From Thuidium tamariscinum (Eukaryota; Streptophyta; Bryopsida; Hypnales; Thuidiaceae): 64,000 nucleotides of DNA. Under the pieces are notes generated by a model that saw only the letters and a list, made by a program, of their open reading frames with translations, ran no database searches and was not told where the DNA came from. Positions 1,346 to 62,780 of this stretch are shown here, piece after piece. Where the stretch lies: the NCBI GenBank assembly GCA_947034885.2, contig OX344750.2:33156821-33220820 (forward strand). Reading direction: 5' to 3'. The position numbers were made by a program, and so were the translations under genes. Position 1 is the stretch's first letter. Each line of letters starts with the position of its first letter.

Positions 1346-1705
1346 TGGCTCAAATTTCTCCCCGGACACTGGTTCCAGGACTAAAGGGTGAGTAAGCAAA
1401 ACCCAAGCCCATTCGACATCTGGTCGCCAGGCATCAGCTGCCAACTGTTCCTCACAGCCCACGTGGCATCCCAAGAAAGGGTCGAAACCGCCTCTCTCCA
1501 TGACGTGGACATCACAGCTGGCGCCTCGAGCTCAAAGGAAGGAGAACCTTTCTTCGTGTAAGTGCCGGCCGCGACGAATCCCCCGTCAAGCTTGAGTGAT
1601 GCCCAACTCCATCCAGAGTCCGTGAAGCAGATTAAGTAGACGATTGAATTCTTACCTAGATCTCTCGCTTTCACGCACATCTTCCTCGCAAATTTCCTAT
1701 GAGCT
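1346..1705 (+). promoter_or_regulatory. RHD3 promoter / 5' UTR region
   Basis: The sequence turns GC-richer here and leads directly to the RHD3 start codon. No clear TATA box is visible. The extent of the 5' UTR is inferred, not seen. Confidence 0.4.
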
Positions 1706-4700
1706 ATGGCGCAAGAAGGAGCTCCTGCGATTCAATTGATAGATGAGAAGGGTTCTTTCAATGAAGCCGCCCTGGTGGATTTCTGCAAGGCGGTGAATCT
1801 CGCCAACTGCGGCCTCTCCTACGCCGTGGTGGCCATCATGGGTCCCCAAAGCTCCGGTAAGAGCACATTGCTCAATCACCTCTTCGGCACCAAGTTCCGT
1901 GAGATGGATGCTTTGCAGGGTCGCAATCAAACTACCAAAGGCGTGTGGTTCCAACGCGCGGACGGCATCGACCCTTGCACTCTTGTCATGGATCTCGAAG
2001 GCACAGATGGACGCGAACGCGGCGAAGACGACACCGCTTTCGAGAAGCAGAGCGCTCTCTTCTCCCTCGCAGTCGCCGACATTGTTCTCATCAACATGTG
2101 GTGTCACGACATCGGCCGGGAGCAAGCTTCCAACAAACCGCTCCTCAAAACGGTCTTCCAAGTCATGATGCGCTTATTCTCCCCCAGGAAGACAACCATG
2201 ATGTTCGTGATTCGGGATAAAACCAAGACGCCCATGGAGATTCTGGAGCCCATTCTGAGAGACGACGTACAGAAGATTTGGGATAGTGTACCCAAACCAG
2301 GGAAGCATAAGGATACCCCCTTGACAGAGTTTTTCAACGTGGAAGTCTCGGCGCTGTCGAATTACGAGGAGAAGGAGGATCAGTTTCGAGAGGAGATTGC
2401 GCAGCTGAAACGGCGGTTTAATAACTCTGTGGCGCCAGGTGGGTTGGCAGGGGATAGGAGAGCAGTGGTACCAGGGACTGGGTTTCCGTTTAGTGCACAT
2501 GAGATGTGGAAAGTGATTAAAGAGAATAAGGATTTGGACTTACCTGCGCATAAAGTGATGGTGGCGACGGTGAGGTGCGAGGAGATTGCGCATGAGAAGC
2601 TGGAGAGCCTGAGAAAAGATGAGAAGTGGAGAGAAATTGAGGAAGGGGCGAGAGGGGTGGGGGTGGTAGGGGGGTTTGGGAAGAAAGCGAGTGCTATTCT
2701 GGAGAAGTATACTTCCGAGTATGATGCGGAGGCGGGATTCTTTGAGGAGAGTGTGAGGACGGCGAAGAGAAATTATCTGATTTCGGAAGCGCTGGAAATG
2801 ATGCAACCGGCGTATGATGCGGTGATTGCGAATTTGAGGGCGAATGCGCTGGAGAAGTTCAAGAAGGAGTTGCGAGATGGAGCGGAGTCGCAAGAGAGGG
2901 CATTCGCGGGGACGGTGAGGCAGTGCTCGGAGAGCGCGTTAGCTTCGTTCGATGAAGCCTCCGCCGGTAAGTACAATTTCGTATTGCTCAATGTTGAAAT
3001 TAGGTATTTATTGCGCGTTGATAACACCATGCTCAGAATAAATTAACCCTTACAGAGCCGAGAAACACGAATCGGGTCTGATGATTAGGGTTATTTGCAG
3101 TTCTGATTAGGTCACAGTATTTGCAGGGACTTCCTATTGCCCAACTTCACTTATTTTTCTACCTACACATGCAAAGTTATTTATGGATTCTAGTGATATT
3201 AAATTTCGGCCCATTGGAATTACTGTTGTGTCACAATATTGATCTTTTGGGGTTTAAGAATCACTAGGGCCGATTTGGGTCTCGTACCTTAGTTTGGCAG
3301 TTTTCTTACGTCCAATCTTATTTATTGTCGACCAAAACATTCATTGTTCTTTGCTAATTCTTGGTCACATCTGAATTACAGAATTTCTCAGTGAGATCAA
3401 ACAAATTGGTCATGCTAGACCCATAATCCTTAGGTCTTTAGCGGAAAAATCACTCATTTTAGTAGAACCATGAATTCTTAGATCTTTAGGGGTCAAGAAT
3501 CACTAATCGTGCCAGTGCGGAATTGGGTCTCGTACCTTATTCTGCTAGTTTTCATACGTCCAATTTCATGCAGTATTGATCAGCACATCCAATGTTCTTA
3601 GTTGATTCTTGAGATCGACAAAATTATGGCTACATCTAAAACTTAATCTTTCAAAATACGACCACTCGCATTCATCGTAATCAAACCATGAATCCTTAGG
3701 TCTTTAGGGGTTAAGAATCACTAAAGCCAGTGCTGAATTGCGCCTTCTTCCTTACTTTGGCAGTTTTTTTGTGTACAACTTCGTTTAGTGTGACCACTAC
3801 AATCTTTTCCGCGGCGTATTGTGATCGATAAAAATTTGGTCCCATTTGAAATGTAACCTTCACAATATGATTAAGCGCATTCGTCGTCATCGAACAATGA
3901 ATCTTGCTGGGGTTAACCAATGCTACCTTTGAGTGCAGATGCGAGAGTTTCGCAGGCGTCATGGGAGACCTCCAAAGCCCGTGAGAAGCTCACTCGCGAC
4001 ATGAACGCCTACGCTCACACCCTCCGCTCCGACCGCCTCCAGCAGCTGAACTCCGAGTGGCAACGCCACATGGAGGAAAATCTCGGGGAGCCCGTCTCCG
4101 CCCTCCTTGACGCCGCCCCCTCTGAAGCCTGGCCCTCCATTCGCGAGCTCGTGGATTCCGAAACCTCCAAAATCACAGAAAGCGTTACGACCGCCCTCAA
4201 GGGCTTCGAACCAAGCCAACAGGAACAGGCCGCCATCCTCACCAACCTCTCCAAATACTCCCGCACCATCGTTGAGAAGAAAGCGCGCGAGGAAACTTCC
4301 CAGGCGCTCATTCGCATGAAGGATCGCTTCAACAATATCTTCGGCCACGACGAGGAGTCCCTCCCTCGCGTCTGGGGCGAGGAGCACAACGTCCGTGCCA
4401 TCACGAAATCCGCACGAATTGGCGCGCTCAAACTGCTCGCCGTGATTGCTGCTCTTCGACTAAACCCTAACCCTAATCCTGAAGACGACCCGATCGAAGA
4501 CGCTCTGTTATCGCTCGTGGAGGAGGAGGGCTCGACGTCCTCAAGCACCAACCCTCTCGCATCGTCAACATGGCCGGGGATTGCACCCGAAGACACAATG
4601 CTCACTCCCTCGCAATGCCGATCCTTGTGGCGACAATTCCGAGCGGAGACAGAGTACACGATTAGTCAAGCGCTCTCGGCCCAAGAAGCCAAGCGCCAAG

Positions 4701-5035
4701 GCAACAATTGGATGCCCCCGCCATGGGCCATCGCGGCGATGCTCGTTCTGGGATTCAATGAGCTCATGACTGTTCTCCGCAACCCCCTGTGGATTCCGGT
4801 CATCTTCGTCGCGTTTTTGCTCGGGAAAGCTCTCTGGGTGCAAATGGACCTTGGTCGGCATTTTCAATATGGTGCGCTTCCTGGGCTTGTGTCAATCTCC
4901 ACGCGCTTCTTGCCGACGGTCATGGAAACGTTCAAGGGCTTGGTAGACGCCGGGACTACGACCGTGCCTGTTGCGGCTGCTGCGACTCCTGCGCGACGTC
5001 CTGAAGCTAAGCGTGCTTATGACTCCGATTCCTGA
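1706..5035 (+). CDS. RHD3: RHD3/SEY1-type dynamin-like GTPase (ER membrane fusion)
   Basis: Two exons, 1706-2966 and 3939-5035, join in phase at GT/AG sites (the split codon is Asp) to give 785 residues, close to the usual length of plant RHD3. Visible motifs are the P-loop GPQSSGKST (46-54), the switch motif [12 protein letters not shown] (96-107) and the atlastin-type RD base motif in VIRDK (170-171). A long helical middle region follows. Near residues 679-722 are two closely spaced hydrophobic segments ([14 protein letters not shown] and [15 protein letters not shown]), which form the membrane hairpin, then a short cytosolic tail ending SDS. In this family the GTPase tethers and fuses ER tubules. 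The ATG at 1706 is chosen because the family N-terminus follows it directly. Angiosperm RHD3 genes have many introns, so a single intron is unusual. The gene is convergent with APC4. Confidence 0.97.
3232..3925 (+). repeat. tandem repeat filling the RHD3 intron
   Basis: The only RHD3 intron (2967-3938) contains three diverged direct repeats of about 215-240 bp. Each carries a block like GGGGTTAAGAATCACTA, near 3249, 3488 and 3707, followed by a shared run containing CTCGTACCTTA or its variant, GCAGTTTT/GCTAGTTTT and ACGTCCAA. A partial fourth start (AATGAATCTTGCTGGGGTTA) lies near 3897. The repeats do not extend into the exons. Confidence 0.75.
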
Positions 5036-20949: not shown

Positions 20950-22210
20950 AAAACGCTGAAAATAAGAGTAGTTCAAATTGTCCTTAAGCTATCATATATG
21001 AAGATTGTATAATAGGACACCAATCAAAATGACATTTTCGAATTTGCATACAAAGAAATTTCAATGCTACCAACTTTGACATCTTCTTAAGGACTAAAAA
21101 ATTGTTTTTTTACCATGAAATTTTTTTATGTGATCACCTCTATATTAACCCCTAAAGGACCAACCCTTTGGTTTTGGCAACATAACTTTTTTGGGCAGGT
21201 ACCTGTGAATGGAGTTTTTAATATTTTTCTTTGAAATTTTTACACAACATGGGATCTAGGAATATCTGTAAGGCCCAACAATTTTCATAACTTTTGACTA
21301 CATTGTCAAAAAGTTATTGCATAATATGTTGCTTTTTTCTCAACTCGGGCAGTTCGGGCAGATCTGAAAAAATCACTTTTTTGAAAAATTGAAATTTGAA
21401 ATTGGTTTGTCAAACTTATATATACATGGAAAGCTTTAAATCATTCTAATTTGATCAATGAGATGAAAGTTATGAAGTTTTTTAGTTTGTGGGCAGTTAT
21501 GGATTCTTTACTTTGAAATAAACTTTGAAATCGTTTATCTAACTCAATTTTCAATATTTTTGAAAAAAAATAAAAACATTAGATGTAGATATTTTATTAT
21601 AATGTCACAACCGTTGGGATTGTCATTTTTTAATTCTATAATTAAATTCTTAACAATTTAGTATATTACATGATTCACTACTTCTTTCTACTTACTATTT
21701 TTTTTCTATATGTTGTACAATTCCAAATGATTTGAAATTTTTTGAGCACGTAGCCAACTTGTTCTTACTAAAGAATCCAAAGAAGCACAACCATTTTGAC
21801 CATTTTTTCATACAAATCAGACCTTCTGAACCGCAGCTGCCCAATTTTCAGCAGGGTTAAAAAAATGAATTTTTCAAATTCAAACGCTAATATCTTGCAA
21901 TCCACACGGTGGATTCTTCTGAAATTTTTTCCACATCATTTCTATCTACTTTACTACAAGATCCTACGGTTACATTTGTCCAAAAATATTTTTTTTCTAA
22001 GACTTGGTACTTGCACTAAAAATGACAGTTTTGGAGAGTTTTTAGTGGAAACATAGTCAAAGAACTTTAGGGGTTAATAAAATATGTCACAAATTTCAAG
22101 TTCAAAAGATTTGCAAAATAAGAGATATATAAAATCTGTCAACATATGTAGTTGTGACCAAAATTTCAATGCTACTAACTTTGACATCCTTTTGAGGGCT
22201 AACAAATAAC
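20950..22210. repeat. older AT-rich repeat interrupted by TTAA element P1
   Basis: Left flank 20950-21148 and right flank 22074-22210 belong to one older repeat, split by element P1. Related uninterrupted copies are at 44185-44370 and 48060-48250. Both flanks also carry TTTCAATGCTAC followed by AACTTTGACATC, so this repeat has an internal duplication. Confidence 0.65.
21145..22077 (+). mobile_element. TTAA-bounded non-autonomous element P1
   Basis: The element starts TTAA-CCCCTAAAGGACCAA and ends GAACTTTAGGGG-TTAA, so a 9-bp terminal inverted repeat CCCCTAAAG lies between two TTAA copies. The 925-bp interior is AT-rich and non-coding. It is homologous along its length to P2 (49243-50180, opposite orientation) and P3 (56288-57207); shared blocks include GATCCTACGGTTA, AATATCTTGCAATC and GCCCAACAATTTTCATAACT. 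The flanking older repeat exists elsewhere without the insertion. Confidence 0.88.
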
Positions 22211-23857: not shown

Positions 23858-26800
23858 TCACCAATAATCACCACAAGAACATACGCCATTTTGGAAGTGG
23901 TGAAAGCGATTAGCATCCCTCACAACAATCTCTCGTTCAGTCACCTTTGAGATAAACTTGGTTGCTGTATGGCAATCTGAACACACTCGAAGGTTCTTGA
24001 ACACCCGAATTGGCTCCCCAAGGGGTGTCCGCATGAGTCCGTAAGCAATAGCCAACTTCTCACTATGGGAGCAAAGAGCAAGTTCTTTCTCCTCCTCCTC
24101 AATGTTCCGCAACACTAGCCGGGTATCAGGAATGTACCCTTCGATCTTAATTTTCTCACTCAATCTCCGCAGCTCAGCATAGATCTCCTTCGCTTCTGGG
24201 TGAGAAGTATCCCCTACGACGAAGTCATGGACCTTGTTATCAACTTCAATCCAGCTACGCCCTGGCTCCTTGCGTATACCTCTCTCCTGCATCATAGTGC
24301 GCACCCACAACACCTCCTCCCACTTGCCAGCTGCAGCATAGATATTCGAGAGAAGCACGTATGCAGAAGCATCCATCGGTTCCAACTTGAGACTCTCATT
24401 AGCGGCAAGTTTGCCCAAATCCACATTACCGTACGTTCTACAAGCACCAAGCAAGGCTCCCCAAGTTAACCCATCCGGTTCCACTGGCATGTTCCCAATC
24501 AAGAGCTTTGCTTCCTCCAAGTGTCCTGCACGGCCAAGAACATCCACCATGCAGTTACAAGGCACTACAGTAGGTTCGATGCCATAATCTTGTGTCATAG
24601 CGAGAAAAAGTCTACGGCCCTCATCCACAAGGCCAGCATGACTACAGGCCGACAACACTGCAACGAAGGAGATCAGATTAGGCTTCACATCGTCTGCAAT
24701 CATATTTTTGAACACTTCCAGGGCTTCGTGCCCACATCCATGGTCTGCAAGTTCGTCAATCATCACGGTCCATGTGATCACGTCACGATCCTTCATCCGG
24801 TCAAAAACTAGCCGAGCATCAACCAAACTGCCGCACTTTCCATACATGCGGACAAGCGCATTGCCCACACGCAAATCCGACTCAAGTCCCGCTTTGATGA
24901 CATGCCTGTGAACCTCCTTCACCCACTCCAAAGCTCCTGCGCTTGAACATGGATTCAGAATGCTCGAATAAGTGATTGCATTGGGTTCGAGGCCTTCCTG
25001 TTTCATTTGGAGAAGCAGCCCATAGGCTTCACTCCCACACCCATGCTGTGCAAGTCCACCAATCATCACGTTCCACGTGACCACATCCCGATCCTCCATC
25101 CGGTTAAAAACTAGCCGAGCATCAACCAAACTGCCACACTTTCCATACATGTGGACAAGCGCAGTGCCCACACGCACATCCGACTCCAGTCCCGCTTTGA
25201 GGACATGCCTGTGAACCTCCTTCACCCACTCCAAAGCTCCTGCGCTTGAACATGGATTCAGAATGCTCGAATAAGTGATTGCATCGGGTTTAAAGCCTTC
25301 CCTTTGCATTTGCATAAACAGTTCATATGCTTCTTGCCCACAACCGTGTTCGGCAAGTCCACCAATCATCACGTTCCATGTGATCACATCGCGATCCTTC
25401 ATCCGGTCAAAAACTAGCCGAGCATCAACCAAACTGCCGCACTTTCCATATATGCGGACAAGCGCATTGCCCACACGCAAATCCGACTCAAGTCCCGCTT
25501 TGATGACATGCCTGTGAACCTCCTTCACCCACTCCAAAGCCCCTGCGCTTGAGCATGGATTCAGAATGCTCGAATAAGTGATTGCATTGGGTTCGAGGCC
25601 TTCCTGTTTCATTTGGAGAAGCAGCCCATAGGCTTCACTCCCACACCCATGCTGTGCAAGTCCACCAATCATCACGTTCCACGTAATCACATCACGATCC
25701 TCCATCCTATCAAACACTAGTCGGGCATCGTCAACACTTCCAGCATTTGCATACATGTGGACAAGCGCATTGCCCACACGCACATCCGACTCCAGTCCCG
25801 CTTTGAGGACATGCCTGTGAACCTCCTTCACCCACTCCAAAGCTCCTGCGCTTGAACATGGATTCAAAATGCTCGCATAAGTGAATGCATCGGGTTTAAA
25901 GCCTTCCCTTTGCATTTGCATAAACAGTTCATATGCTTCCTGCCCACATCCGTGTTCGGCAAGTCCACCAATCATCACGTTCCATGTGATCACATCCCGA
26001 TCCTCCATCCGGTCAAAAACTAGCCGAGCATCAACCAAACTACCGCACTTTCCATACATGCGGACAAGCGCATTGCCCACACGCAAATCCGACTCAAGTC
26101 CCGCTTTGATGACATGCCTGTGAACCTCCTTCACCCACTCCAAAGCCCCTGCGCTTGAGCATGGATTCAGAATGCTCGAATAAGTGATTGCATTGGGTTC
26201 GAGGCCTTCCTGTTTCATTTGGAGAAGCAGCCCATAAGCTTCACTCCCACACCCATGCTGTGCAAGTCCACCAATCATCACGTTCCACGTAATCACATCA
26301 CGATCCTCCATCCTATCAAACACTAGTCGGGCATCGTCAACACTTCCAGCATTTGCATACATGTGGACAAGCGCATGGCCCACACGCAAATCCGACTCAA
26401 GTCCCGCTTTGAGGACATGCCTGTGAACCTCCTTCACCCACTCCAAAGCTCCTGCGCTTGAACATGGATTCAAAATGCTCGCATAAGTGAATGCATCGGG
26501 TTTAAAGCCTTCCCTTTGCATTTGCATAAACAGTTCATATGCTTCTTGCCCACATCCATACTCGGCAAGTCCACCAATCATCACGTTCCATGTGATCACA
26601 TCCCGATCCTCCATCCGGTCAAAAACTAGCCGAGCATCAACCAAACTGCCGCACTTTCCATACATGTGGACAAGTGCATTGCCCACACGCAAATCCGATT
26701 CAAGTCCCGCTTTGAGGACATGCCTGTGAACCTCCTTCACCCACTCCAAAGCTCCTGCGCTTGAACATGGATTCAGAATGCTCGCAAACGTAATTGCATC

Positions 26801-27793
26801 GGGTTTAAAGCCTTCCCTTTGCATTTGCATAAACAGTTCATATGCTTCTTGCCCACATCCGTGTTCGGCAAGTCCACCAATCATCACGTTCCACGTGATC
26901 ACGTCACGATCCTTCATCCGGTCAAAAACTAGCCGAGCATCAACCAAACTACCGCACTTTCCATACATGTGGACAAGCGCATTGCCCACACGCATATCCG
27001 ACTCAAGTCCCGCTTTGATGACATGCCTGCGAACCTCCTTCACCCACTCCAAAGCCCCTGCGCTTGAGCATGGATTCAGAATGCTCGAATAAGTGATTGC
27101 ATTGGGTTCGAGGCCTTCCTGTTTCATTTGGAGAAGCAGCCCATAGGCTTCGTGCCCACACCCATGCTGTGCAAGTCCACCAATCATCACGTTCCACGTG
27201 ACCACATCCCGATCGTCCATCCGGTCAAAAACTAGCCGAGCATCAACCAAACTACCGCACTTTCCATACATGTGGACAAGCGCAGTGCCCACACGCACAT
27301 CTGATTCAAGCCCAGCATGTCTTACATACGCATGAACTTCTTTGCCCCACTGCAAAGCTGATGGATCGGCACATGCCTTCAGGATGCTCGCGAAAGTAAA
27401 TGCAATTGGCTGGACCCCTTTTTGGCACATTTGATTGAAAAGTTCCATTGCTTTTTCAGCATCATTGTGCTTTGCATAACCTCCAATCATAATGGTCCAA
27501 CTGAAGACGTTCTTGTTCACAAGTTTATCAAACACTCCACGTGCATCCTCCAATTCTCCACACCTGATATACACGCTCACAAGGTTGTTTGCCACATATG
27601 TATTCTGCTCCATTCCACTCTGGTTGATGTAGTCGTGAAGCTGCTTCGCGACATTAACATTAAGGTTTTCCTCCTTCAAGCACCGTCTCAAAACTTCAAC
27701 ATACATAAATGAGTCGATGGCCATGCCTTGTTCTAGGCCTTTCTTCAAATTACCAATTGCTTCAGTCGTGCTTCTTGCAGTTTTCAAGGACAT
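23858..27793 (-). CDS. PLS-class PPR protein with E and DYW domains (organelle RNA editing factor)
   Basis: One uninterrupted ORF of 1311 residues. The reading frame extends about 50 bases further 5' but has no ATG there; the first ATG is at 27793 (MSLKTARST). PPR repeats of P, L and S type run from about residue 30. Residues about 200-1008 are eight near-identical 101-residue P-L-S triplets. E1/E2 motifs follow (EPGRSWIEV), then a complete DYW deaminase domain with HSE (CSHSEKLAIAYGL), the zinc ligand pair CSDCH, and the terminus HFQNGVCSCGDYW. Such proteins bind organellar RNA and deaminate C to U. No target peptide is obvious. Triplets are of two kinds: QHGCG.EAYGLLLQMKQ with Asn as last P residue, and EHGCGQEAYELFMQMQR with Asp. 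Coding sequence is intact, so a working gene is likely, though the array is recently expanded. Confidence 0.97.
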   Translation of the reverse strand: MSLKTARSTTEAIGNLKKGLEQGMAIDSFMYVEVLRRCLKEENLNVNVAKQLHDYINQSGMEQNTYVANNLVSVYIRCGELEDARGVFDKLVNKNVFSWTIMIGGYAKHNDAEKAMELFNQMCQKGVQPIAFTFASILKACADPSALQWGKEVHAYVRHAGLESDVRVGTALVHMYGKCGSLVDARLVFDRMDDRDVVTWNVMIGGLAQHGCGHEAYGLLLQMKQEGLEPNAITYSSILNPCSSAGALEWVKEVRRHVIKAGLESDMRVGNALVHMYGKCGSLVDARLVFDRMKDRDVITWNVMIGGLAEHGCGQEAYELFMQMQREGFKPDAITFASILNPCSSAGALEWVKEVHRHVLKAGLESDLRVGNALVHMYGKCGSLVDARLVFDRMEDRDVITWNVMIGGLAEYGCGQEAYELFMQMQREGFKPDAFTYASILNPCSSAGALEWVKEVHRHVLKAGLESDLRVGHALVHMYANAGSVDDARLVFDRMEDRDVITWNVMIGGLAQHGCGSEAYGLLLQMKQEGLEPNAITYSSILNPCSSAGALEWVKEVHRHVIKAGLESDLRVGNALVRMYGKCGSLVDARLVFDRMEDRDVITWNVMIGGLAEHGCGQEAYELFMQMQREGFKPDAFTYASILNPCSSAGALEWVKEVHRHVLKAGLESDVRVGNALVHMYANAGSVDDARLVFDRMEDRDVITWNVMIGGLAQHGCGSEAYGLLLQMKQEGLEPNAITYSSILNPCSSAGALEWVKEVHRHVIKAGLESDLRVGNALVRIYGKCGSLVDARLVFDRMKDRDVITWNVMIGGLAEHGCGQEAYELFMQMQREGFKPDAITYSSILNPCSSAGALEWVKEVHRHVLKAGLESDVRVGTALVHMYGKCGSLVDARLVFNRMEDRDVVTWNVMIGGLAQHGCGSEAYGLLLQMKQEGLEPNAITYSSILNPCSSAGALEWVKEVHRHVIKAGLESDLRVGNALVRMYGKCGSLVDARLVFDRMKDRDVITWTVMIDELADHGCGHEALEVFKNMIADDVKPNLISFVAVLSACSHAGLVDEGRRLFLAMTQDYGIEPTVVPCNCMVDVLGRAGHLEEAKLLIGNMPVEPDGLTWGALLGACRTYGNVDLGKLAANESLKLEPMDASAYVLLSNIYAAAGKWEEVLWVRTMMQERGIRKEPGRSWIEVDNKVHDFVVGDTSHPEAKEIYAELRRLSEKIKIEGYIPDTRLVLRNIEEEEKELALCSHSEKLAIAYGLMRTPLGEPIRVFKNLRVCSDCHTATKFISKVTEREIVVRDANRFHHFQNGVCSCGDYW
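24771..27194 (-). repeat. 8 x 303-bp in-frame tandem array inside the PPR gene
   Basis: The block CAATCATCACGTTCCA (+ strand) recurs at 27181, 26878, 26575, 26272, 25969, 25666, 25363 and 25060, spaced by exactly 303 bp, i.e. one P-L-S triplet. In protein order the units are A B B A B A B A, so much of the array also has a 606-bp period. Neighbouring copies differ by few bases, which points to recent unequal crossing-over or gene conversion. Confidence 0.95.
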
Positions 27794-28011
27794 ACTACCG
27801 CCACCACCCGGTACAATATGCCTCGACTCTCTTGCAGTACTAGGCACAATGCATCCTCTTCCATTGTAGCCCTTAGATAGCCTGATTCATCAATAGATTC
27901 TTCAATAGAAATCCCTTCGAAAGAAGAACACTGATACACAGTGAAAGGGTGCAAGACCACTAATGCCCAGTACTCACATATTTCAACATCCACAAATTTG
28001 CATCCATCCAT
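27784..28011 (-). other. 75-codon upstream ORF overlapping the PPR start codon
   Basis: An ATG at 28011 opens an ORF (MDGCKFVDVEICEYW...) in a different frame. It ends with TGA at 27786-27784, so it overlaps the PPR ATG at 27793-27791. It may be a translational control uORF in the PPR leader, a piece of the upstream OSB transcript, or chance. It resembles no protein I know. Confidence 0.35.
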
Positions 28012-28760: not shown

Positions 28761-31450
28761 GTCACATTCTCACCACGAGAGGCAAACTCTTTCTGTGACG
28801 ATGGGCATATGATACATACCTGAAGCATTGGAATTCGAAGGTGATCTCTTCCAAACTGATGAAAATGGTGAACACCGGATTGGTCCACTGCCTCGTATGT
28901 GAGAGGGAAAGGGCAGGGATAAAGAAAGGTAGATAGGCCATGGAGACCTGAAGACTGAGATTGCACAGATATTCTGGGTACACAAACGTCAACACTCTGT
29001 TAATAAGCAACTTCGTACCATTCAAAGCGCTCTTCCCATCAATACCGGGGTTTAGGGTTCGGTCAACCATGTTCATATACGGTTACGTTTGGAAAAATGT
29101 GACAACCTCTTTATCAAACATTGCTGTAAAGGAGAACTCAAATTTCGACACATTTGTTGTCAGCATGACCACAGTAGTCCAACCCATGTCACAAGTCATC
29201 CAACCGCTTAATTCACTCACCTGTGCACCACCTAGTCCACGCACCGACAAAAAGCTTCTCTGTTCTCTCCTGCACTGCAATCGCTGTCTACAATCTAAAT
29301 CCCACGACACCAATTGGGGTGGCAGTCCCATCACTATCTACCCACATTACAGAAATCAATTCACAATAACTGTTACTAAGAAGAACATCACAAAGAACAA
29401 CGCCGGAATGGACCTCAGAATTGAACCTGTGGACAGAAACACGTCAAATTGAAAAGAAACTACATGTGTGAAAAATCTGCTACTACTCCAATCCTGAAAA
29501 CCCGAACACATTAACCCTTAAACGTCGGTCCGGGCACCGTCGGAGAAAGCGGGCTGCGACTAGTGTTGCTGATCGAAGGTGGACACACTGTTCACGATCT
29601 ATGAACAAAGTTACGGAAATGATGCAGTTGGGCAGCCCGGCGACTGCAAAAGGGGAACAGTGGAAGCGGTCATTGACAAGGTTACCAATGCCCTTCTCAC
29701 ACGATTTTCATCTGTGTGTCCGAAACCAGTGGAATCAACGGACACGTCTGTAGCTACAGTCCCACCCACATGTGCCGTTTGTCCAGACAGTGGCGTCCCT
29801 TTCTTCCTTCCTAGCAGTAATGTAACAGCTATTTTGTGTAATTTGCCACTTTGCGAAGATTACAAATTGTGTTTGTTCGAGCATGTGAAGAACTACTGAG
29901 ACAAGCACTAGAGTAACATGTGGAAGCAGAACATTACTCTACTTCAATTGAAAGCTTATATATATATATATGGGAAGTTCGGAGCTTGCATCCCAACTCT
30001 TTGGTACAAATCACTTTCTTGCTGCAGCATTCTCTCCGCCTGATAAACAGAAACGATCATACCTAAAGACTGAATGAAGCACATTCACGTAGTATTCTAT
30101 TCCACACGCTTTCCAGGTCATGTTCTTATGGACCTGCATATATGATACAGTGCACATGATGAGAACAAGAAAATCATGTCCACGTTTCTACAAGCTCCTT
30201 GATAGTGATCCACATGTGGTAAACAACACAAACAAATTGGGAAAATGACAAGAGGGGAACCAGAATACAAAAGATGACATGGTGAGCACCAATGACTGCT
30301 CTCACCTTTTGAAAGCAGAACACAACCAATTACTACGTTCACTGAGGTACAGAATGAGACCACGGGAGCTCATTACCCTGATATGTACATTGCTATCTAC
30401 TCGTGAACAAGACAATGACCATGGACATTGCTGAACTCACATTGAGGTCTAAAATTCTCTTCCGACTGATCCGCTTCATGGGCTGAAGTCGAATTTCAGA
30501 CACAAGAGACTCACATCGCTATGAAGAGGACGGTGCTGCCATTGAAGAGACCCAAAAATTCTTCCCAAGTCATGTACCTTCACGAAGAGCACATCGTACT
30601 GCAGAAGAAGAAGCGATATATCCCGCTCCACTGACGCCTGCCGCAACCAAGTTCGTCAGTCAAAGTTCGGAATCTATGACAACAATCAAGAACTTGCGGA
30701 ATTTGCAATGACGTTTCTCCAGATTCCAATAGCACTGTTCACAAAATGGAGAAAATGCACAACTCATAATGGAGACACGCTGGAGTGACTCAAGTACCTT
30801 CTTCTCTCTCAGCAACCCAAGAAGTGACTGCCTGCACAGTAAAGGTGAAGCGAAGCTGAATGACTCTGACAATCACACTGCAAACGGTAATGCAAAAGCC
30901 CAATTGACGTACCTTCTTCATGGCTCAGTAAGTTTCCCACAGATTCACACTGCGTTGGCTACTTATTCTCCCCCTACATCTGAGCATCCATTTTCCTCAG
31001 TATCGAGCTGTCATGAAACCATACCAGCGAGTTCTCCTCAGCGCAGATGGCACTAACATTGTTCTCAAGGCACTTGTCTTAAAAACACGTCCACTACTTA
31101 GCACACAGTCAGCATCGTCTGCAAGGCATTTCTCGTCTTCTTCGAGTCCTTCTTCGCTGTGTTCTCTTTCTCAATTAATGCAAACAGCGGAAGAAATGAA
31201 GGCGAAGAGCAGTGTTAGTGAAGCTCCAGCTTGGAAGTTTTGAACGTCGGAAATGTTGAACAAGTCTGGAGTCTTCCAGGTACAATGCAATTCCTCCTGA
31301 TGAAGTAGTTGCCGCAATTCGTTCGCCAGCAGGTGACTCCCTCACTAGTAAGAGAAATGACCGCTATCCACCGGCTGAAATTGCTACGGCGAACAGTCCT
31401 TCACCTCCCGCAACAGGGCACTGAAGGTGCGATTAGGGTTTCATCATAAA
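28761..31450. other. moderate-GC region upstream of the OSB exons, gene content unresolved
   Basis: This stretch lacks the AT-rich repeats seen elsewhere and may contain OSB introns and 5' exons on the minus strand. A double telobox (AACCCTAAACCCC on the minus strand, near 29050-29063), common in promoters and leaders of plant housekeeping genes, is followed on that strand by ORFs in all three frames but none matches an OB fold. A short TA microsatellite lies at 29958-29970. Open stretches at 29579-29899 (+) and 30660-31056 lack ATG starts or recognisable domains. Confidence 0.4.
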
Positions 31451-31954
31451 CCCTTCCGGGGTGAATCGACCCCCTCGTTGGGAAAACACTGAAATTTTTT
31501 ATTTTTCATGCATGAAATGCTTTGCAAATTCTGAATTCATATTTGCAATCTAAATGCCCCAAATTCGCTAAAAGGCATCTAGGAGCAATCCAACCGACAC
31601 CGTAGCTGGAGTTCAAAGCACACTTTCAAATATATTAAATGAGAATCAAAGTAATTTTTTATCTTTCAATTGGAGATTATAGTAGCTAAGATCAACGACT
31701 AGTCCAGTAGCTAGGATATTTACATAGGTGAATTTCTTTGTATCTTAAATACATGTACGAAGTTTTTTCTTGCAAATTTTGCACAACCTCCTAGTCTTCT
31801 CCATAGACCATGGTCCATGAATTGCATGTACGTGGGGGGCAAAACTAAAAAAACTTGTCACTCTATCCGACCATTTCAAAGACAGTTTTTTTGCCAATTT
31901 CATTTGAAATGACAAGTGGATCATAGCATCTATTAGGAATTTGAAACTAAGTCA

Positions 31955-33350
31955 CTATAAATGATCCAAGAGCTATTAATGGTTGTGTTTAAAAGAAAAT
32001 GAAAGAGATGGTGCCACCATTTGTGACTACCTGTTAAGGTACTATAATACCCTTGAAGTTGGTTAACACTATTAACACTTCTCATATTTCTTTGATATTA
32101 TAAATGCATTAAGCTTGTTCAAATATGGTTTTTTTTCCCTTTGCACTTTTTTTGAACAATGTCTTTTTCTCTCCATCTTGTCAATGTGCCTCATCATGCA
32201 TGGATAATAACAGAATAGGAACTCTATCTTTCCAAACAACACAACAAATTTGTCGTGATATGTACATGTGAAAATCCATCTACCCCATGTCCTTCTTCTA
32301 AGTAATGTTCTTGTCCTATAATTCTTTGGGCACTTATTTGCAATTTGGCTTTAAAGTCCTTGTTGTCATGGTCCCTTGATCCAATAACTGTAAAAATAAT
32401 GGTACGAATGTGAAAAAACTATCCATTGTCACAATGTGGCCTAGACCATGTAGGGTTCTTATGAGATCCAAGATCACTTCTACTCCTTGCATTCCAAATT
32501 CCCTTTCCTTTTTTGCCACAAATTGTGAACACTGCATAGGTTGTGAAAACAAGGTACTATATTTGGAGTCTTTTCTAAAGTAAACTCAAAAAACCCACAT
32601 GTATTTCACAATAGCATCTGTCATTGCCCAAACCTATATGCCAAATTGTATTTGTTTCACTAGCATATATTGCCTTATTGGATTGTATTCGCCCTTATAT
32701 CTAACCATATATTCATCAATAAGTCATTGTTGATGAGGCTTCCACAAAATTTGACATCAGAAATGCATAACTTTATGTAACCAACACACTTTTTCTATTT
32801 TATGAGCCCTATCTAATGCCCCATTCACCACATGCAAACATTGTAATATATTTTCAAATCTTTTTCTATTAAGAAGTTTTGATATTACTAGACAAAACAA
32901 TAAAGGTTTTTCTTTTGACCAATAACATCTCATTCAAAAATAAAAGGACCCCTAAATATGTGCAAAATTCACTATAAAAAAATGTGGGTATAAATGACTT
33001 GTCCACAATGACTGCAGAGACAACAATGACAATAGTCATTTTGTAGTCATTTTGCAATCATTATTGTTAGTGCAATCATTGTGGACAAGTCATTTATATC
33101 TACATTTTCTTGTAGTGATTCATGATACACTAAAGGAGTTCAATCTTGACCACCATGACTTTGACCCATTTCTTTGAGCCACACAATTGAGGCATAATGA
33201 TTAGTCTCTTTAATAATTTTGATCATTGTCCTTGGAGTTAAAAACTTCTCAAACTTGAAGATATATTGATAATTCTTTATAACTAGTTGCACACCTAATT
33301 TTGGGACCAAAGAAGGGGATTGGAGGACTTGCATAATTTTGAACACCAAG
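31955..33350 (-). pseudogene. decayed piggyBac-like transposase
   Basis: Read on the minus strand, the pieces occur in the order of a piggyBac (DDE_Tnp_1_7) transposase. First is FEKFLTPRTM...IKETNHYA (near 33260-33180), then GVLLFLNEMLL, RKRFENILQCLHVVNG, then a core with IDEYMVRYKGEYNP, RQYMLVKQ and WAMTDAIVKYMWVF, then VTMDSFFTFVPLFLQLLDQG (near 32400), and near 31980 HKWWHHLFHFLLN. Stops and frameshifts interrupt it throughout and a CACTA MITE splits it, so it cannot encode an enzyme. In the family the protein cuts and pastes elements at TTAA. No TTAA/CCC ends were found flanking it. Family assignment is from motif order, by eye. Confidence 0.82.
32967..33120. mobile_element. 148-bp CACTA-type MITE with 3-bp target duplication
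   Basis: The element runs 32970-33117. It begins CACTATAAAAAAATGTGGG and ends ATTTTCTTGTAGTG, with long inverted arms that include GACTTGTCCACAATGA and its complement. ATT lies immediately on both sides (32967-32969 and 33118-33120). CACTA ends with a 3-bp duplication define the superfamily. It sits inside the piggyBac-like pseudogene. Confidence 0.88.
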
Positions 33351-33695
33351 AAGCCTTATCTCAAAGGCAAATTTGATAAGCATAGGATCCAAGTCCTCAT
33401 CATTTTTTTTGGATGACCATTTTAATTTCAATGATATTTTGTGTGATTTTTTTGTACACCTACTAGAAAGTGGTAGTCCTTCTCTACTTGGTCCATTATG
33501 TACCCTCTTGAATGTGTTAACTTTGGTTTGCGTTGGAGGATGGATATCTAGTTGTGTTTTTCTTTTCATTTCTAAGATGGACAAAGGTTCCTGCTCTAGT
33601 AATGGATGAATGGAGAGTATTGAAGCTATTACACAACCATCCCCCTTTTCACCACCATTTTCTAGCATTTCTCAATGCTCTCCTTGCATTCAAAC

Positions 33696-37123: not shown

Positions 37124-37889
37124 TACAGGGTGATTGCAAGAAACACTTCACGTTTTTGGCTCAAAACATTGTTTTTGGACATAGTACTGGCAGTACTATG
37201 TGATCCTGACAGTACAGTGCATCTGACGCCCGCCTACAAATCTCAATCGTTGATTTCGTGCGCCTGTAGATCTGGGTCGTCAGTGTAGTACTATGCAGTA
37301 CTATAGACTACTACAAGTACTTCACAGGCCACAGGGAGCAGAAAATAGCAGAAAAAGGGTCTATGGATTTTTTTTTTTTTAATAATTAAAAAAATCAAAA
37401 AATTATTTTTAAAAGAATCCATTTTTTTAAACATAATTGTGTTCATATCGCAACAAAAAATTCCTCTAAATTTTTTTTCCCTCTTTGCAGCATTTGTGCA
37501 AAGGAAGGTCACTTTGACCTCATGTGGACAATAGATATTTTACTATTTTTATAAAAAAAACTCAATGTCAATCCTTGAAATGTTAGTAGACCTCCAACTT
37601 GTCCAATTTGTGGCTTCAAATTTGTATTTTTGAGTCAAAAATAGGACTAAAAACCTCCAAAATGGCCAAAGTAGACAACCAATTGGGGACAGTTTAAAAA
37701 TAGTAAACTAATTTTTTTTAAATTAAAAAAATTACACAATATATAAAACTTTTGTGTGCACCTTCATTCCAAATTTCAAGTTGATAGGGCAAAATATGCA
37801 AAATTTATGAGCAAAAAACTACCTGTTGGAGGTCAAGAGGACAAGAAATAGGACAAGTGTTTCTTGCAATCACCCGCAATCACCCTACA
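37124..37889 (+). mobile_element. TIR element E1 (4-bp target duplication TACA)
   Basis: Element 37128-37885 starts GGGTGATTGCAAGAAACAC and ends GTGTTTCTTGCAATCACCC followed by an extra GCAATCACCC. TACA flanks both sides. The right end therefore carries a doubled terminus. The interior shares ACAGTTTAAAAATAGTAAA and CAAAAATAGGACTAAAA with E2 and E3. The left part is unique and includes a 23-bp palindrome at 37179-37201. It is non-coding. Confidence 0.9.
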
Positions 37890-43870: not shown

Positions 43871-46800
43871 CAACACATATCCGTTGGAGTTCTAGTTCAC
43901 CAATTGAGAATCTCTAATTTTGTAGTTAGGTAGTTAGGTAGTTTAGAATTTGTAGTTAGATAGTTTGGTAGGTAATGTTGTAGCTTTAGAATTTAATTAT
44001 TTTTCAACTATGAGCCAACAAATGTACATGGCTAAATATGCCTTATCTTGAATGAAATGCACTAGATTGATTTAGTTTCATTCATGTAGTTGTCTTTCCA
44101 ATCTACAAGTTTTTATTGCTATAAATTAAAATGTGAAGTTGACCATTAGCCATTTCTCTTTATGGACTATACAATAGTCCATAAATAATTAAATACAGGT
44201 GAAATTGGTTTTTTACCATGTAATTCTTTTTACAAAATCTTCTCTAAGTTAATAACACATATGATAAATTTCAAGTTATAAAGATTTGCACAGAAAAAGA
44301 TATTGGAATTCTACCAACATGTATTACTATAAGAGACAATTTTGCTAGTGACAACTTTGACACCATCTCCCACTTGATGAAAAATCCATCAGATGTTTTT
44401 TAGCCCCACAAGAGATTGCTTGTGGGCTATTTTCCAAAACTATTCCCTGTGTTGTATACCATCAAGTACTCTAATTTGAATTTTTGAATTTTTTTTTTAA
44501 CTTAAAAAATTATAAAAAAATAATAAGTAATTTTAAGAAATATAAATTTTATAAAAAAATATTTGACAATTAACTTTTAAAGTCTTAAAATAATAAAATC
44601 TGACATGGTAGTCTCTCAACTACGTCAAATTGCCTATATAGCAAGGTTGTTCTATCGGACCATGGGGAGGACACTTCTTGCGTTTTAGCAACCCACGTGT
44701 GGTGGAATACATGGTGGATTTAATTAATTTTGGCTAATATTTATAAAAACTTATAAAAGAATTACATATAAAGTAGGGGACATGAAAAATGGCAAGTTCA
44801 TGATAAGTAATGTAGGTAACTAAAAAATATGGTCTATTAATTTTTAGGTACATGTAATTTAGGGGCAAAAGAATTAGATCCAAGGAATTGTATTTAGTAG
44901 GGTTTGTTTATACCAAATCAAAATTACAATATAGTAATATGTCAAACTTATAGTATAGTATCATATGTTGAGGGCAAATTCATCACACCCTAAACAAAAT
45001 CTGTTCTTTTTGCTTAAATTTCCCTTTCATTCAACCAAAAAGAATTTTCATGATTTGGTTTATTGTAATTAGAAATATTTTGTTAATTGTAGCCACGGCC
45101 CTCCTGCTTTATTACATTGCAAGCTCAATATGATAGAAGTTTTACAAAATCTTATTTTACATGCCAAAATAAGGTAGGCTTTCTAGAATTTTGCTCTACT
45201 CAGGCTTAATTAAGGCTTTGCTATTAGGTTTGAATAATGAAGGCCATACTATCAGTTTATAAGCTAAAATCAAGGCTTAACAATTAAGTCTTACCGCTTT
45301 ACAACATAATATATGGAGTATTATTTTATATGATTTTTTAATTTTTTGCAGCACGTGGATAATATAATATTTAATTTTTTCATCAAATTTTTTTTGAAGA
45401 TTTCAAATTGTTTTCATTAATCTTTTCTACACTATCAAACTTATCACGTCATGATTTCTGAAAATTTCATCATGTGCCATATTTATTTAATTTTGAATTA
45501 ATTTTTGACAAATTTGACCCAAGTGTAGAATACTCATACGTTAGAATTACAAGATGAAACTCCAAATCATTGGATGAAGGTGCTATTTTATAGACTTAGA
45601 GTTTTAAACACTAGAAGAAACCTGTGTTAGAAATCTGCGAAACGCGTGGGCTGAAATTTGTTGAGTTCCACGTTTCCAGCGCAAAAATCTGCATTGGAAT
45701 GCATTTTTCATATGGCTTCTAATTGTTGAATATGGCTTTTAATTCTAATGTTTTGTGTTTGATTCATGCATAATAATTGGTGTTTAGAAATTTAATCTTT
45801 TTTTCTATAAACTCTTTCCTTATCACTTTTACTTTTTCATTAGTTTTTTATTTAGTTTTTTTACTTACAAAAAATATAGGCTAATTGCATTGACCTACAT
45901 ATTATAAGTAATGATATGGATGATTATATAGGAAAAAAATTTACATTAGGTAATGATAGGGGCCCTCTCAATGTTGCCTAAGAGGTAAATAGGCTCCCAA
46001 AAAATATCCCTTCGCCACACATGGGTTCCCCAGAGAGAGTATGTAGTGAGAGTGGCCCCCAGGGAGATTACTCGCGAATTTTAGAAAACTATGTGAGTTA
46101 AAAGATAGGGTCTATTTGATTCAAAAGGGATAAATTTTGTATTATATGTAGGGCTACCATAGGGTCCTTGAAATGTCACATATCCTATTATGTATAAATT
46201 AGGCTATAGACAAACATCATTTAGTAGGAATTTTTATGAATAAATTAGCCTTTACAAATAGGGTTTGTAGAATTTGTTTGTAATACAATGACTATAGATG
46301 TAAACAAAAAATTTTAAGTGAATGATAAAACTTACATAATCTAGTAAATCTAAGGATTTTTTTCTAGAGATTTTTGGTAGCTATCAAATAATTTCAGCTT
46401 GTACATGCAAATCTTTTCATAAGTATGCCAACTATGTAATAGCATGTGAGAATTTACTATTCCAAGACAAAAGAGTTGAACTTTAAATTTACAATGAGGT
46501 TGTACTACGAGGATATGATTTCACACAAAGTACCCATTAAGAAATTAGTTTAGGGTTTGGGTACCATCATTTCTATAAATTAGAGTGTTAGAGGTGCTAT
46601 TTTTGGTGGAATTACTTATCTATTGCAACTGCTAATCTATAGAAGTTGTTGATTTACAACAATTGTATAGAATCTTTTCTATCCTTTGACACTATAAATT
46701 CTAAATTTACCTCAACTATTTGTACATGTACTTGTAAATGTTTATAATCATCTTCTTTTTAGTGTTGTTTAATAAACATTCTTTTATTTTTTGATTCTAA

Positions 46801-48059: not shown

Positions 48060-48250
48060 TATAATCTTCTAAATGCCCAAGAAACATCTAAAGGATTTTT
48101 TACAATGAATTTCTTTTACAAGATCATATCTATATTAATAACATATGTGACAAATTTTAAGTTCAAAATATTTATGGCGAATTTCGTTAAAACGGCGGTA
48201 TTCCATCAGTATGACACTTTTGACAATTTAGACCACACAATCTGAAATGT
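48060..48250 (+). repeat. older repeat, uninterrupted copy (paralogous empty site)
   Basis: CTATATTAATAACATATGTG and CAAATTTTAAGTTCAAAA match the joined flanks of P1 closely, with one TTAA at 48135-48138 where P1 lies at 21145. Confidence 0.72.
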
Positions 48251-48363: not shown

Positions 48364-49106
48364 AAATGGGTCGTTGCAAAAAACACTTACCAGTTTTGGC
48401 TCAAAATGGCTCAAAATGGCTCAAAATCAGTGAGTCGTATGAGTCCTGTGACTTTTGGAAAAAAAAATTTGAAATTGAAAAAAATATGGATAATTTGAAG
48501 AGAAATGAGAATATTATGTCTCTTGAAATTCAAATCTAGGAAATTTTTTCTCTAAATGTTTTACACAATCAAAAATACAATGAAAATAGCTCTTTTTCAC
48601 TAATTTGGTAAAAATAGTAAAAGAACTCAAAAAATAAAAATAAAAGATATTTTTTTCTCCAAATAAAGGTCTTTTTTTTCAAAAAAATTTCATCTTTGGA
48701 AAAAATAAATTTTATTCTCCACACTTGTGCAAAGTGAGCCATTTTGATGACATGTGGAGGTTGAATAGTATAGTATTTTCAAAAAATCTCTTCATGGTCT
48801 TGTGTAACTTTAGATGAGGTCCTTGCATGCCAATTTTCAGCTCAAAATTTTCATTTTTGGGTCAAAAATAGGACTAAAACCCCCCAAAATGGCCAAAGTA
48901 GACACCCAATCGGGGGCAGTTTAAAAATAGTAAAATAATTTTGAAAAAATTGAAAAAATTGAAAAAAATGTAAAACTCTTGTAGGCACCTTCATTTCAAG
49001 TTTCAAGTCAAATGAAAAAAAGATGAAAAAGTTATAAGCAGAAAACTACCTCTTAAAGGTCAAGGGGACAAAAAAAAGGACAAGTTTTTCTTGCAATCAC
49101 CCAAAT
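48364..49106 (+). mobile_element. TIR element E2 (4-bp target duplication AAAT)
   Basis: Element 48368-49102 starts GGGTCGTTGCAAAAAACACT and ends GTTTTTCTTGCAATCACCC; AAAT lies on both sides. It is about 90% identical along its length to E3 (61610-62337) and shares the distal part with E1. It is non-coding. Confidence 0.9.
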
Positions 49107-49242: not shown

Positions 49243-50180
49243 TTAACCCCTAAAGGTTTTGGACTATGTTTTCACCAAAACCGCTTCAAAACTGTCATTT
49301 TTTAGACAACTATCAAAATTTTAGAAAAAAACATTTTTTGACAAAAATAACCGTAGGATCTTTTAGAAAACAAGTTTAAGAATATGTGGAAAAAATTTCA
49401 GCAATTTCCGCTGAGTAGATTGCAAGATATTGGTGTTTAAAGTGACAAAAATCATTCTTTTACCACTGCGGAAATCCGGGCAGCTGCACTTCAGAAGACC
49501 ATATTTGTGTGGAAAAATGTCCAAAATGATTGTAACTCTTTGGATTCATTTTTCAAGTGAAGTTGGCTACATGCTTGAAAATTTTCAGATCATTTGAAAT
49601 TGTACAACATATAGGAAAAAAATAGTAAGTAGAAAGAAGTAGAAAATGAGCCAAAACACTAAATTATTAACAATTTATTTATAGAGTTAAAAAAGACAAT
49701 CCCAATGGTTGTAATGTTGTGTTAAACAATATAAACCCAATGTTTTTATTTTTTTTCAAAAATATTAAAAATTGAATTAAATAAAGAATTTCAAACTTGT
49801 TTTGTAGTTTAGAGATTTTATAACTAGCCGAAACTACCTCAAACTAAAAATCCTCATAACTTTTGACTCATTAATCAAAATGGAATGATTCAAAGGTTTC
49901 CTCTTTGATAAAAATCAAAGAAACCAATTTCAAATTTTAATTTCTTAAAAAAGTAATTTTTTTGCTGCCCGAGTTGCCCACCGAGTAGAGAAATTACATA
50001 TCAGCCAATAACTTTTTCACTATGTAGTCAAAAGTTATGAAAATTGTTGGGCCTTAAAGTTACTCCTTGGGCACATCTTGTGTCAAAATTTCAAAGAAAA
50101 AAAACAAAAATTCCATCTGTAATGAACTGCCCGAAATCGCTGTGTTGTCAAAAAACGCAGTTTGGTCCTTTAGGGGTTAA
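49243..50180 (-). mobile_element. TTAA-bounded non-autonomous element P2
   Basis: Ends are TTAA-CCCCTAAAGG and CCTTTAGGGG-TTAA, a 10-bp perfect inverted repeat. The 930-bp interior is homologous to P1 in reverse orientation (CGTAGGATCTT, GATTGCAAGATATT, CATAACTTTT in complementary order). It is non-coding. Confidence 0.9.
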
Positions 50181-56287: not shown

Positions 56288-57207
56288 TTAATCCCTAAAG
56301 GACCAAGTTCAATTTTTTGGCAACATAGGAATGTTGGGTAGCACAATACAAATGGATATTTTTATTTTTTACTTTGAAATTTTTATACAACATTAGGTGA
56401 GGGATGTCTTTAAAATCCAACAACTTTCATAACTTTTGACTACATAATTAGAAAGTTATTACACAATATCTTGTTCCTTTCTCAACTTAGATAGTACAAG
56501 CTTATAAAAAAATCACAAAAGAAAATTTGAAATTGATTTTCCATATTTATATATATATTATAAGCTTTGAATAATTTCATTTTGATTAATGTTATGAAAG
56601 TTATGAGGAATTCAAGTTTGTAGGTAATTATAGATTTTCTATTCTAAAATAAACTTTGAAGTCTCTTGTTAAACTCAATTATAATTATTTTTGAAAAAAA
56701 TAAAAATATTGGATTTAGATTGCTTATCAAAACATTACAAACATTGGAATTGAAATTTTTCAATTTCATAACTAACTTTTTAATAATTTAGAGCTTTAAA
56801 TCATTCTTTACGTCTTTTTATTTAGTTCTTTCTTTCAATATGTTGTACAATTCCAAATAATCTAGAATCTTTCAAACATGTGACCAACTTTCCTTCAAGA
56901 ATGAATCCAAAGAAGTACCAATAACATGAACATTTTTTCACACAAATATGACCTTGTGAAGTGCAATTGCCCAATTTTTTGCAAGGCCAAAAAATGGATT
57001 TTGGTTAATTCAAACACTAAGAACTTGCAACCAACATGGAAGAAATTTCTAAAAAAATTACCACATCTTCTCACACCAATGTACTAAAAGATCCTATGGT
57101 CACATGTGCCTAAAAATGTCTTTTTTACTAAAGCTTGATGCTTCTACTAGAAATGGCAGTTTTGAAACATTTTGGTGAAGACACACTCAAGGAACATTAG
57201 GGGTTAA
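56288..57207 (+). mobile_element. TTAA-bounded non-autonomous element P3
   Basis: Ends are TTAA-TCCCTAAAGGACCAA and ACATTAGGGG-TTAA. The 912-bp interior matches P1 in the same orientation (ATGTTGTACAATTCCAAATA, AGATCCTATGGTCACAT, CAACTTTCATAACTTTTGAC) but is more diverged. Non-coding. Confidence 0.85.
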
Positions 57208-61605: not shown

Positions 61606-62341
61606 AATAGGGTCGTTGCAAAAAACACTTACCGGTTTTGGCTCAAAATGGCTCAAAATTAGTGAGTCCTATGAATCTCGTGACTTTTGGAATAATTTTT
61701 TTTAAATTGAAAAGAATATGGATAATTTGAAGAGCAATGAGAATATTATGTCTCTTGAAATTCAGACCTAAGAAAAAATTTCTCTAAATGTTATAGACAC
61801 TGGAAAATACAATGAAAATAGCTCTTTTTTCACTAATTTGGTAAAAATAGTAAAAATATTCAAAAAATGAAAATAAAAAATAAATTTTTTTACCAAATAA
61901 AAGTCTTTCTTTTTCAACAAATTTCATCTTTGGAAAAAATAAATTTTATTCTCCACACTTGCGCAAAGTTAGCCACTTTGACGACATGTGGAGGTTGAAT
62001 AGTATAGTATTTTCAAAAAATCTCTTTGCAGTCTTGTGTAACTTTAGGTGAGGTCCTTGTATGCCAATTTTCAGCTCAAAATTTGCATTTCTGGGTCAAA
62101 AATAGGACTAAAACCCCCCAAAATGGCCAAAGTAGACACCCAATCAGGGGCAGTTTAAAAAGAGTAAACTCATTTTGAAAAAATTGAAAAAATTACAAAA
62201 AATGTAAAACTTTTTTAGGCACCTTAATTTCAAGTTTCAAGTCAAATGAACAAAAGATGCAAAAGTTATGAGCAAAAAACTACCTCCTGAAGGTCAAGGG
62301 GACAAAAAAAAAGGACAAGTGTTTCTTGCAATCACCCAATA
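61606..62341 (+). mobile_element. TIR element E3 (4-bp target duplication AATA)
   Basis: Element 61610-62337 starts GGGTCGTTGCAAAAAACACT and ends GTGTTTCTTGCAATCACCC, with AATA on both sides. It is nearly colinear with E2, including CTCCACACTTG(T/C)GCAAAGT and CCCCCCAAAATGGCCAAAGT. Non-coding. Confidence 0.9.
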
Positions 62342-62780
62342 GGAAGATCATTTTGGGACAAAGGTAGTACAAATCTAATGCAAGATTATACAACTACTTT
62401 TGCAAAAAAGAAAAAAGAGAAATCATTATTGTTCTTTGCATTAAAAATTTGAATTTGAGAATGAATTTTAGATAAACATAGTCATAAAACTTTAGGAACT
62501 AAAATGATTGTTGAGACTTCATTAGTGTGTAGAGGGGGATTTTGTAGAAAATGAAAAGATTTCAACTAAACATAGTCAATAATATTACAATCAAATTACT
62601 TTGAACAAAAAAATAAGTATATTTTAATCCAATTAAACCTATAAATTATAAAATAGAGATCATAAGGCTTAATACCTCCTAATAATACTAAAAAACACAT
62701 AATATGAGAACCATAAAGACATAATATATTGATATAATGGTGTCATTGATGGTGCTATATATAAAATTGTGTTTTTTCAT

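Follow-up and report, generated by a model that had tools for sequence, protein, structure and literature searches.

Introduction

In the genome of the moss Thuidium tamariscinum a short segment, here called P1, lies within a repeat and is bordered on both sides by TTAA, which raises the question of what kind of element it is and how it came to be there. The original prediction, made on the 64,000-nucleotide stretch of DNA analysed here (the window), was that P1 had inserted at TTAA and duplicated it, and it gave the signature as piggyBac, or else Kolobok or Sola3, and as uncommon in plants. Here we present evidence that P1 is almost certainly a non-autonomous, MITE-like transposon of the piggyBac superfamily, 925 bp long and belonging to a land plant.

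For the piggyBac element of T. ni, hairpin intermediates, insertion at TTAA and seamless excision are described (PMC7351741). In beetles, piggyBac ends are described as being most often CCCT (PMC12732532), although CCC is not universal, as many bee elements start with CAC (PMC10140906). Four sources contain passages that list piggyBac, or annotate it, in land plants (PMC4438587, PMC6890710, PMC10004981, PMC10794571), and coding families are known from a haptophyte alga (PMC5963040), so that its presence in a plant is not in itself new. One passage describes the insect element as yet to be tried in P. patens (PMC5505980).

P1 interrupts an older repeat at a duplicated TTAA

The limits first drawn for the insertion, 21145-22077, have the right place but take in both copies of TTAA, and the element proper lies between them (Table 1). 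P1 is without coding capacity and ends in CCCCTAAAG...CTTTAGGGG, with CC...GG as its terminal bases. The string CCCCTAAAG is present at either end, each thus beginning with the CCC of piggyBac TIRs, and the 3' block that goes with the CCCCTAAAGGACCAA end is AAGATCCTACGGTTA. One A/T-rich 10-mer is the extent of the repeats common to both subterminal regions in all three full-length copies of the window (P1, P2 and P3).

When the flanks of P1 were joined at one TTAA and compared with the window by BLAST, they aligned through the TTAA into both of the uninterrupted copies on which the original prediction relied. The match to 48096-48173 covers 78 bp, ungapped across the junction, at 84.6% identity (E 2.7e-19), and that to 44202-44320 covers 119 columns across the junction, with one gap, at 76.5% (E 9.5e-19). 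Each copy has the single TTAA claimed for it, and the one outcome named beforehand as fatal, flanks non-homologous to these copies at the junction, did not occur. Since P1 interrupts the host repeat, the latter is the older of the two. The TTAA at the paralogous empty sites may never have been used, or may have been vacated without a trace. The host repeat also carries a 47-bp direct repeat (87%) on either side of P1, at 21056-21102 and 22161-22207; with P1 removed its copies are about 176 bp apart, as a small tandem duplication.

Table 1. Positions in the window of P1, its target sites and its relatives
Feature	Position	Strand	Details
P1, non-autonomous element, almost certainly of piggyBac type	21149..22073	+	ends CCCCTAAAGGACCAA / CTTTAGGGG; at most 94 codons between stops
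Left TTAA target-site duplication of P1	21145..21148	.	
Right TTAA target-site duplication of P1	22074..22077	.	
Paralogous uninterrupted copy of the target repeat of P1	48096..48173	+	single TTAA 48135-48138
Second paralogous uninterrupted copy of the target repeat	44202..44320	+	single TTAA 44249-44252
P2, full-length relative	49247..50176	-	77% to P1; 930 bp; TTAA 49243-49246 and 50177-50180
P3, full-length relative	56292..57203	+	74% to P1; 912 bp; TTAA 56288-56291 and 57204-57207
Decayed piggyBac transposase relic, older coding copy, nearest to the EA/E847 lineages	31763..33410	-	five pieces aligned to EA hold 12 stops, with frame changes between them

Relatives and neighbours within the window

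P1, P2 and P3 are 73-77% alike in pairs. At E 0.01 their flanks do not match one another, and for P2 and P3 no match within the window bridges the junction once the flanks are joined. An nhmmer search of the window with a profile of the three found no further good copy and weak matches alone (best E 8e-4). A fragment at 62436-62496, ending in CTTTAGGAACTAA, resembles the 3' end of P1 (75%, E 0.001) and is perhaps a decayed, truncated copy. The transposase relic of Table 1 has a possible 3' end at 29511, where TTAA adjoins CCCTTAAACG.

About 140 bp from P2 there is a repeat of 455 columns, whose two copies (48651-49104 and 61885-62339) are 92% alike and part of which recurs at 37603-37875 (82%). 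The window also holds an RHD3/Sey1 GTPase gene as two long open stretches on the forward strand (1703-3046 and 3917-5035), and in the gap between them repeated strings mimic the right end of P1 (CTTTAGGGG at 3484 and 3702). On the reverse strand, a PPR-DYW gene of 1342 codons (23858-27886) contains 8.5 tandem copies of a 303-bp unit (87%) at 24722-27310, which looks like a recent expansion of PPR repeats. Both the DYW-PPR gene and the RHD3 gene indicate a land-plant host.

Near-identical copies of P1 in the genome

We searched the genome to which the window belongs (363 Mb, 19 contigs) with P1 and scored the 40 best of 9664 first-look candidates. Among the 42 matches to P1, two are short and 40, including P1 itself (L001), are full-length or nearly so at 99-100% identity. 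All 40 are exactly 925 bp long, and the near-identical copies are scattered over the chromosomes in unrelated flanks. TTAA stands on both sides of 39, and CTAG on both sides of the remaining one (L027). Because L005 and L006 have common flanks, the 40 copies represent 39 independent sites, 38 with TTAA and one with CTAG. Taken together with the empty sites, these flanks bear out the claim of insertion at TTAA with its duplication.

The same sites bear on the length of the duplication. At a single site, a duplication of TA, TTA or TAA by an element with A...T ends is formally possible, and P1 could then be a Tc1/mariner or PIF/Harbinger MITE that lies in TTAA by chance. However, the CTAG on both sides of L027, together with the 38 TTAA sites, means that all four bases were duplicated and not just two or three; the families that duplicate TA or 3 bp have negligible probability and were rejected.

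It is also conceivable that the copies were spread by segmental duplication and not by transposition, as the two flanks common to L005 and L006 might indicate. Against this, no other pair of the 40 exceeds 50% ungapped identity in the 100-bp flanks, and paralogous empty sites exist. We therefore rejected segmental duplication, the chance of which is practically nil, and take the P1 copies to be transposed ones.

Pairwise differences among the 40 copies over 925 bp range from 0 (L005/L006) to 12 with a median of 8, and of the 71 variable sites 40 are singletons; one change is private to the copy in the window. As the best-scoring of the 9664, the copies are a non-random set biased to the youngest. 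Judged by the median among these best-scoring copies, P1 is best read as recently amplified.

Abundance of the ends and two lineages, P and Q

The 19-bp end string TTAAYCCCTAAAGGACCAA has 3621 exact occurrences in the genome (1828 + 1793), and its reversed control 0 + 0; since some subfamilies have the string whole, or nearly so, at both ends, there may be fewer elements than 3621. The exact string had 0 matches in viral_contigs, from which records near this genome have possibly been left out.

We sampled 20 left ends, about every fifth of 100 places listed, all on C1, and sought right ends with at most one mismatch. A right end adjoining TTAA was present for 13 of the 20, at 907-946 bp (L092 has two string matches, of which the 946-bp end was used). 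The right end of L077 is decayed, and for six others (L074, L076, L079, L082, L088 and L090) none was found within the approximately 1.1 kb fetched. One of the 20 (L085, 98.7%) belongs to the burst that includes P1.

These relatives fall into two lineages. Lineage P comprises L075, L080, L083, L085, L086, L089, L092 and L093 together with P1-P3, and lineage Q comprises L078, L081, L084, L087 and L091, which have the perfect 14-bp TIR CCCCTAAAGGACCA. A perfect TIR of 14 bp is thus found in 5 of the 13 sampled relatives, and one of 0-12 bp in the remaining 8. P and Q are about 53% alike and yet colinear with few gaps, and conserved blocks follow in the same order across both, among others at P1 positions ~273-332, 396-425, 725-828 and 857-901. 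Across the sample (L074-L093) and P1-P3, the elements of both lineages are non-coding and hold the length range given above. That a length of about 0.92 kb and a block order have been kept despite identity of about 53% suggests that the interior itself may be needed for mobilisation.

Like MITEs, the P1 family is short, non-coding and present in many copies of uniform length. At 925 bp, P1 is longer than most MITEs.

piggyBac transposase genes in the same genome

The piggyBac profile PF13843 gave 116 matches in the genome from 659 candidates, on C1-C10, each row listed being above the cut-off, and matches in 0 of 14 control genomes. Several of the matches sit in TTAA-bounded elements with the DDD triad. 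Nine of the 11 rows with a 1023-codon open frame (L052-L060) are 99.9-100% identical over ~3.98 kb, differ in the 20 bp outside the element and end in TTAA followed by CCCTGAAACG. One of them, L054, is a family-A coding piggyBac whose insertion point is precisely the TTAA next to a P1-like element (79%, 225 columns).

Element ends were sought in nine loci, with E1214 and E916 counted as one family, and in L050. CCC ends adjoining TTAA were found in 9 of these 10 coding loci, 4039-6312 bp apart, and no CCC ends were found for E744 (L065). The ends of E847 are only loosely alike (CCCTAATACG / CCCTAGAAGG), which makes its limits less sure. For L050 the second-scoring pair (CCCCTAAATG / CCCCTAAGTT, 5135 bp) was chosen for its CCC ends, the top pair being an A-rich chance pair.

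Three aspartates align in nine transposase lineages, and a Cys-rich tail closes eight of the nine ORFs, that of E840 stopping before it. The transposases of E885 (E 5e-25) and E774 (E 5.9e-27) match T. ni piggyBac in the PDB (6x67), and both match piggyBat there too. E774 has an uninterrupted ORF of 613 codons (613 aa), stands between TTAA on either side and begins with CCCCTAAATGCCCAA. The remark that such a signature is uncommon in plants agrees with most of the literature passages at hand, but in this genome piggyBac is abundant.

End homology links the P1 family to E774

The ends of P1-P3 were compared with those of the coding elements, taking the best of 18 ends compared and 300 dinucleotide shuffles for each. 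The 3' ends of P1, P2 and P3 match E774 with z of 12.8, 10.4 and 4.9, a score reached by 0 of 300 shuffles in each case, and the matches lie at equal distance from the end. Against E885, the 3' scores of P1 and P2 were reached by 0 of 300 shuffles and that of P3 by 16 of 300, so that P3 does not stand out. The 5' ends are only weakly like that of E774, shuffles reaching the score in 3 (P1), 29 (P2) and 52 (P3) of 300; in a second shuffle test of the P1 5' end it was 0 of 200. The 5' end of L089 gave no match to E774.

Lineage Q gives a closer link. L078 matches E774 over 5' positions 1-91 (76%, 93 columns, E 1.7e-12) and 3' positions 674-921 (71%, 257 columns, E 2e-30), the numbering from corresponding ends being in register. 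At a BLAST threshold of E 1e-4, two of the five Q elements match E774 at both ends (L078 and L091), L081 at the 5' end alone, and L084 and L087 at the 3' end alone. In the shuffle test L078, L081 and L087 pass at either end (0 of 200).

These comparisons bear on the two other families named at the outset. Kolobok also duplicates TTAA, but its termini are given as 5'-RR...YY-3' in a passage of PMC9587614, whereas those of P1 are CC...GG, and the ends of the P1 family match a piggyBac-coding element instead. On both counts a non-autonomous Kolobok element was rejected as having next to no probability, and of the alternatives in the original prediction it is piggyBac that is supported. TTAA by itself does not tell P1 from Sola3 or another, undescribed TTAA-targeting element beside which the abundant piggyBac would be coincidental, and the weak likeness of the P1 5' end to E774 leaves some room for this. 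We nevertheless consider it very improbable, as the P1 3' end matches E774 and E885, and Q, a sister lineage colinear with P1 along its length, matches E774 at both ends.

No transposase-coding element with the exact CCCCTAAAGGACCAA end of P1 was found, and a pattern meant for coding relatives with P1-like ends occurs at 5 places. As the interior of P1 matches no transposase gene of the coding elements compared, P1 is not a simple internal deletion of them. Given the homology of the Q ends and of the P1 3' end to E774, we read the P1 family as a non-autonomous lineage of piggyBac, and P1 itself, judged from its sequence, as a young branch of that lineage.

Discussion

We propose that a transposase of the E774 lineage would bind both the CCCCTAAA... 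ends and the 3' subterminal block, which is conserved, and that it would then excise the element through the hairpin pathway that piggyBac is known to use and join it to a TTAA elsewhere. Mobilisation in trans of this kind could raise the copy number of P1 without a protein of its own. As to the wider picture, we judge the chances to be evenly balanced that this land plant hosts a diverse native piggyBac system, recently and perhaps still active, in which several coding lineages stand beside an old, non-autonomous one that has thousands of ends and whose constant length and block order would reflect a need for the interior in mobilisation.

Among the literature matches listed, no title or abstract opening reports native piggyBac in a moss (one search stem missed the older spelling Physcomitrella). 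Nor does any of these matches describe a land plant, moss or otherwise, in which near-identical coding elements occur alongside non-autonomous ends by the thousand. A report on Niphotrichum (PMC10619864) was set aside as a false match to the word 'piggybacking'. What seems new is how abundant native piggyBac is in this plant and how recently it has spread. With its uninterrupted transposases, its coding copies at 99.9-100% identity and its fresh non-autonomous family, this genome would offer a native plant piggyBac for study, which would serve footprint-free genome tools, and a horizontal-transfer origin of plant piggyBac becomes a question that can be asked.

The P1 family shares with T. ni piggyBac and its superfamily the TTAA target, the 4-bp duplication, the CCC ends and asymmetric end regions, and its coding relatives share with T. 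ni piggyBac the DDD triad and transposases homologous to 6x67. These relatives, where ends were found, measure 4.0-6.3 kb, whereas T. ni piggyBac is given as 2472 bp (PMC10140906). P1 differs from the superfamily in being non-coding and in its land-plant host, piggyBac being best known from animals. In a non-seed plant, the fern Ceratopteris, an annotated PiggyBac class counts 1230 copies and 122,417 bases, although the annotation, as far as the available part of the source goes, gives no ends, duplications or transposases (PMC6890710). Similar in form, by description, are the piggyBac-type MITEs listed for angiosperms (PMC10004981), which in the passage at hand are likewise short, non-coding and bounded by TIRs; in contrast to these, the assignment of P1 is based on end homology to a coding element of its own genome and on target duplications at many sites.
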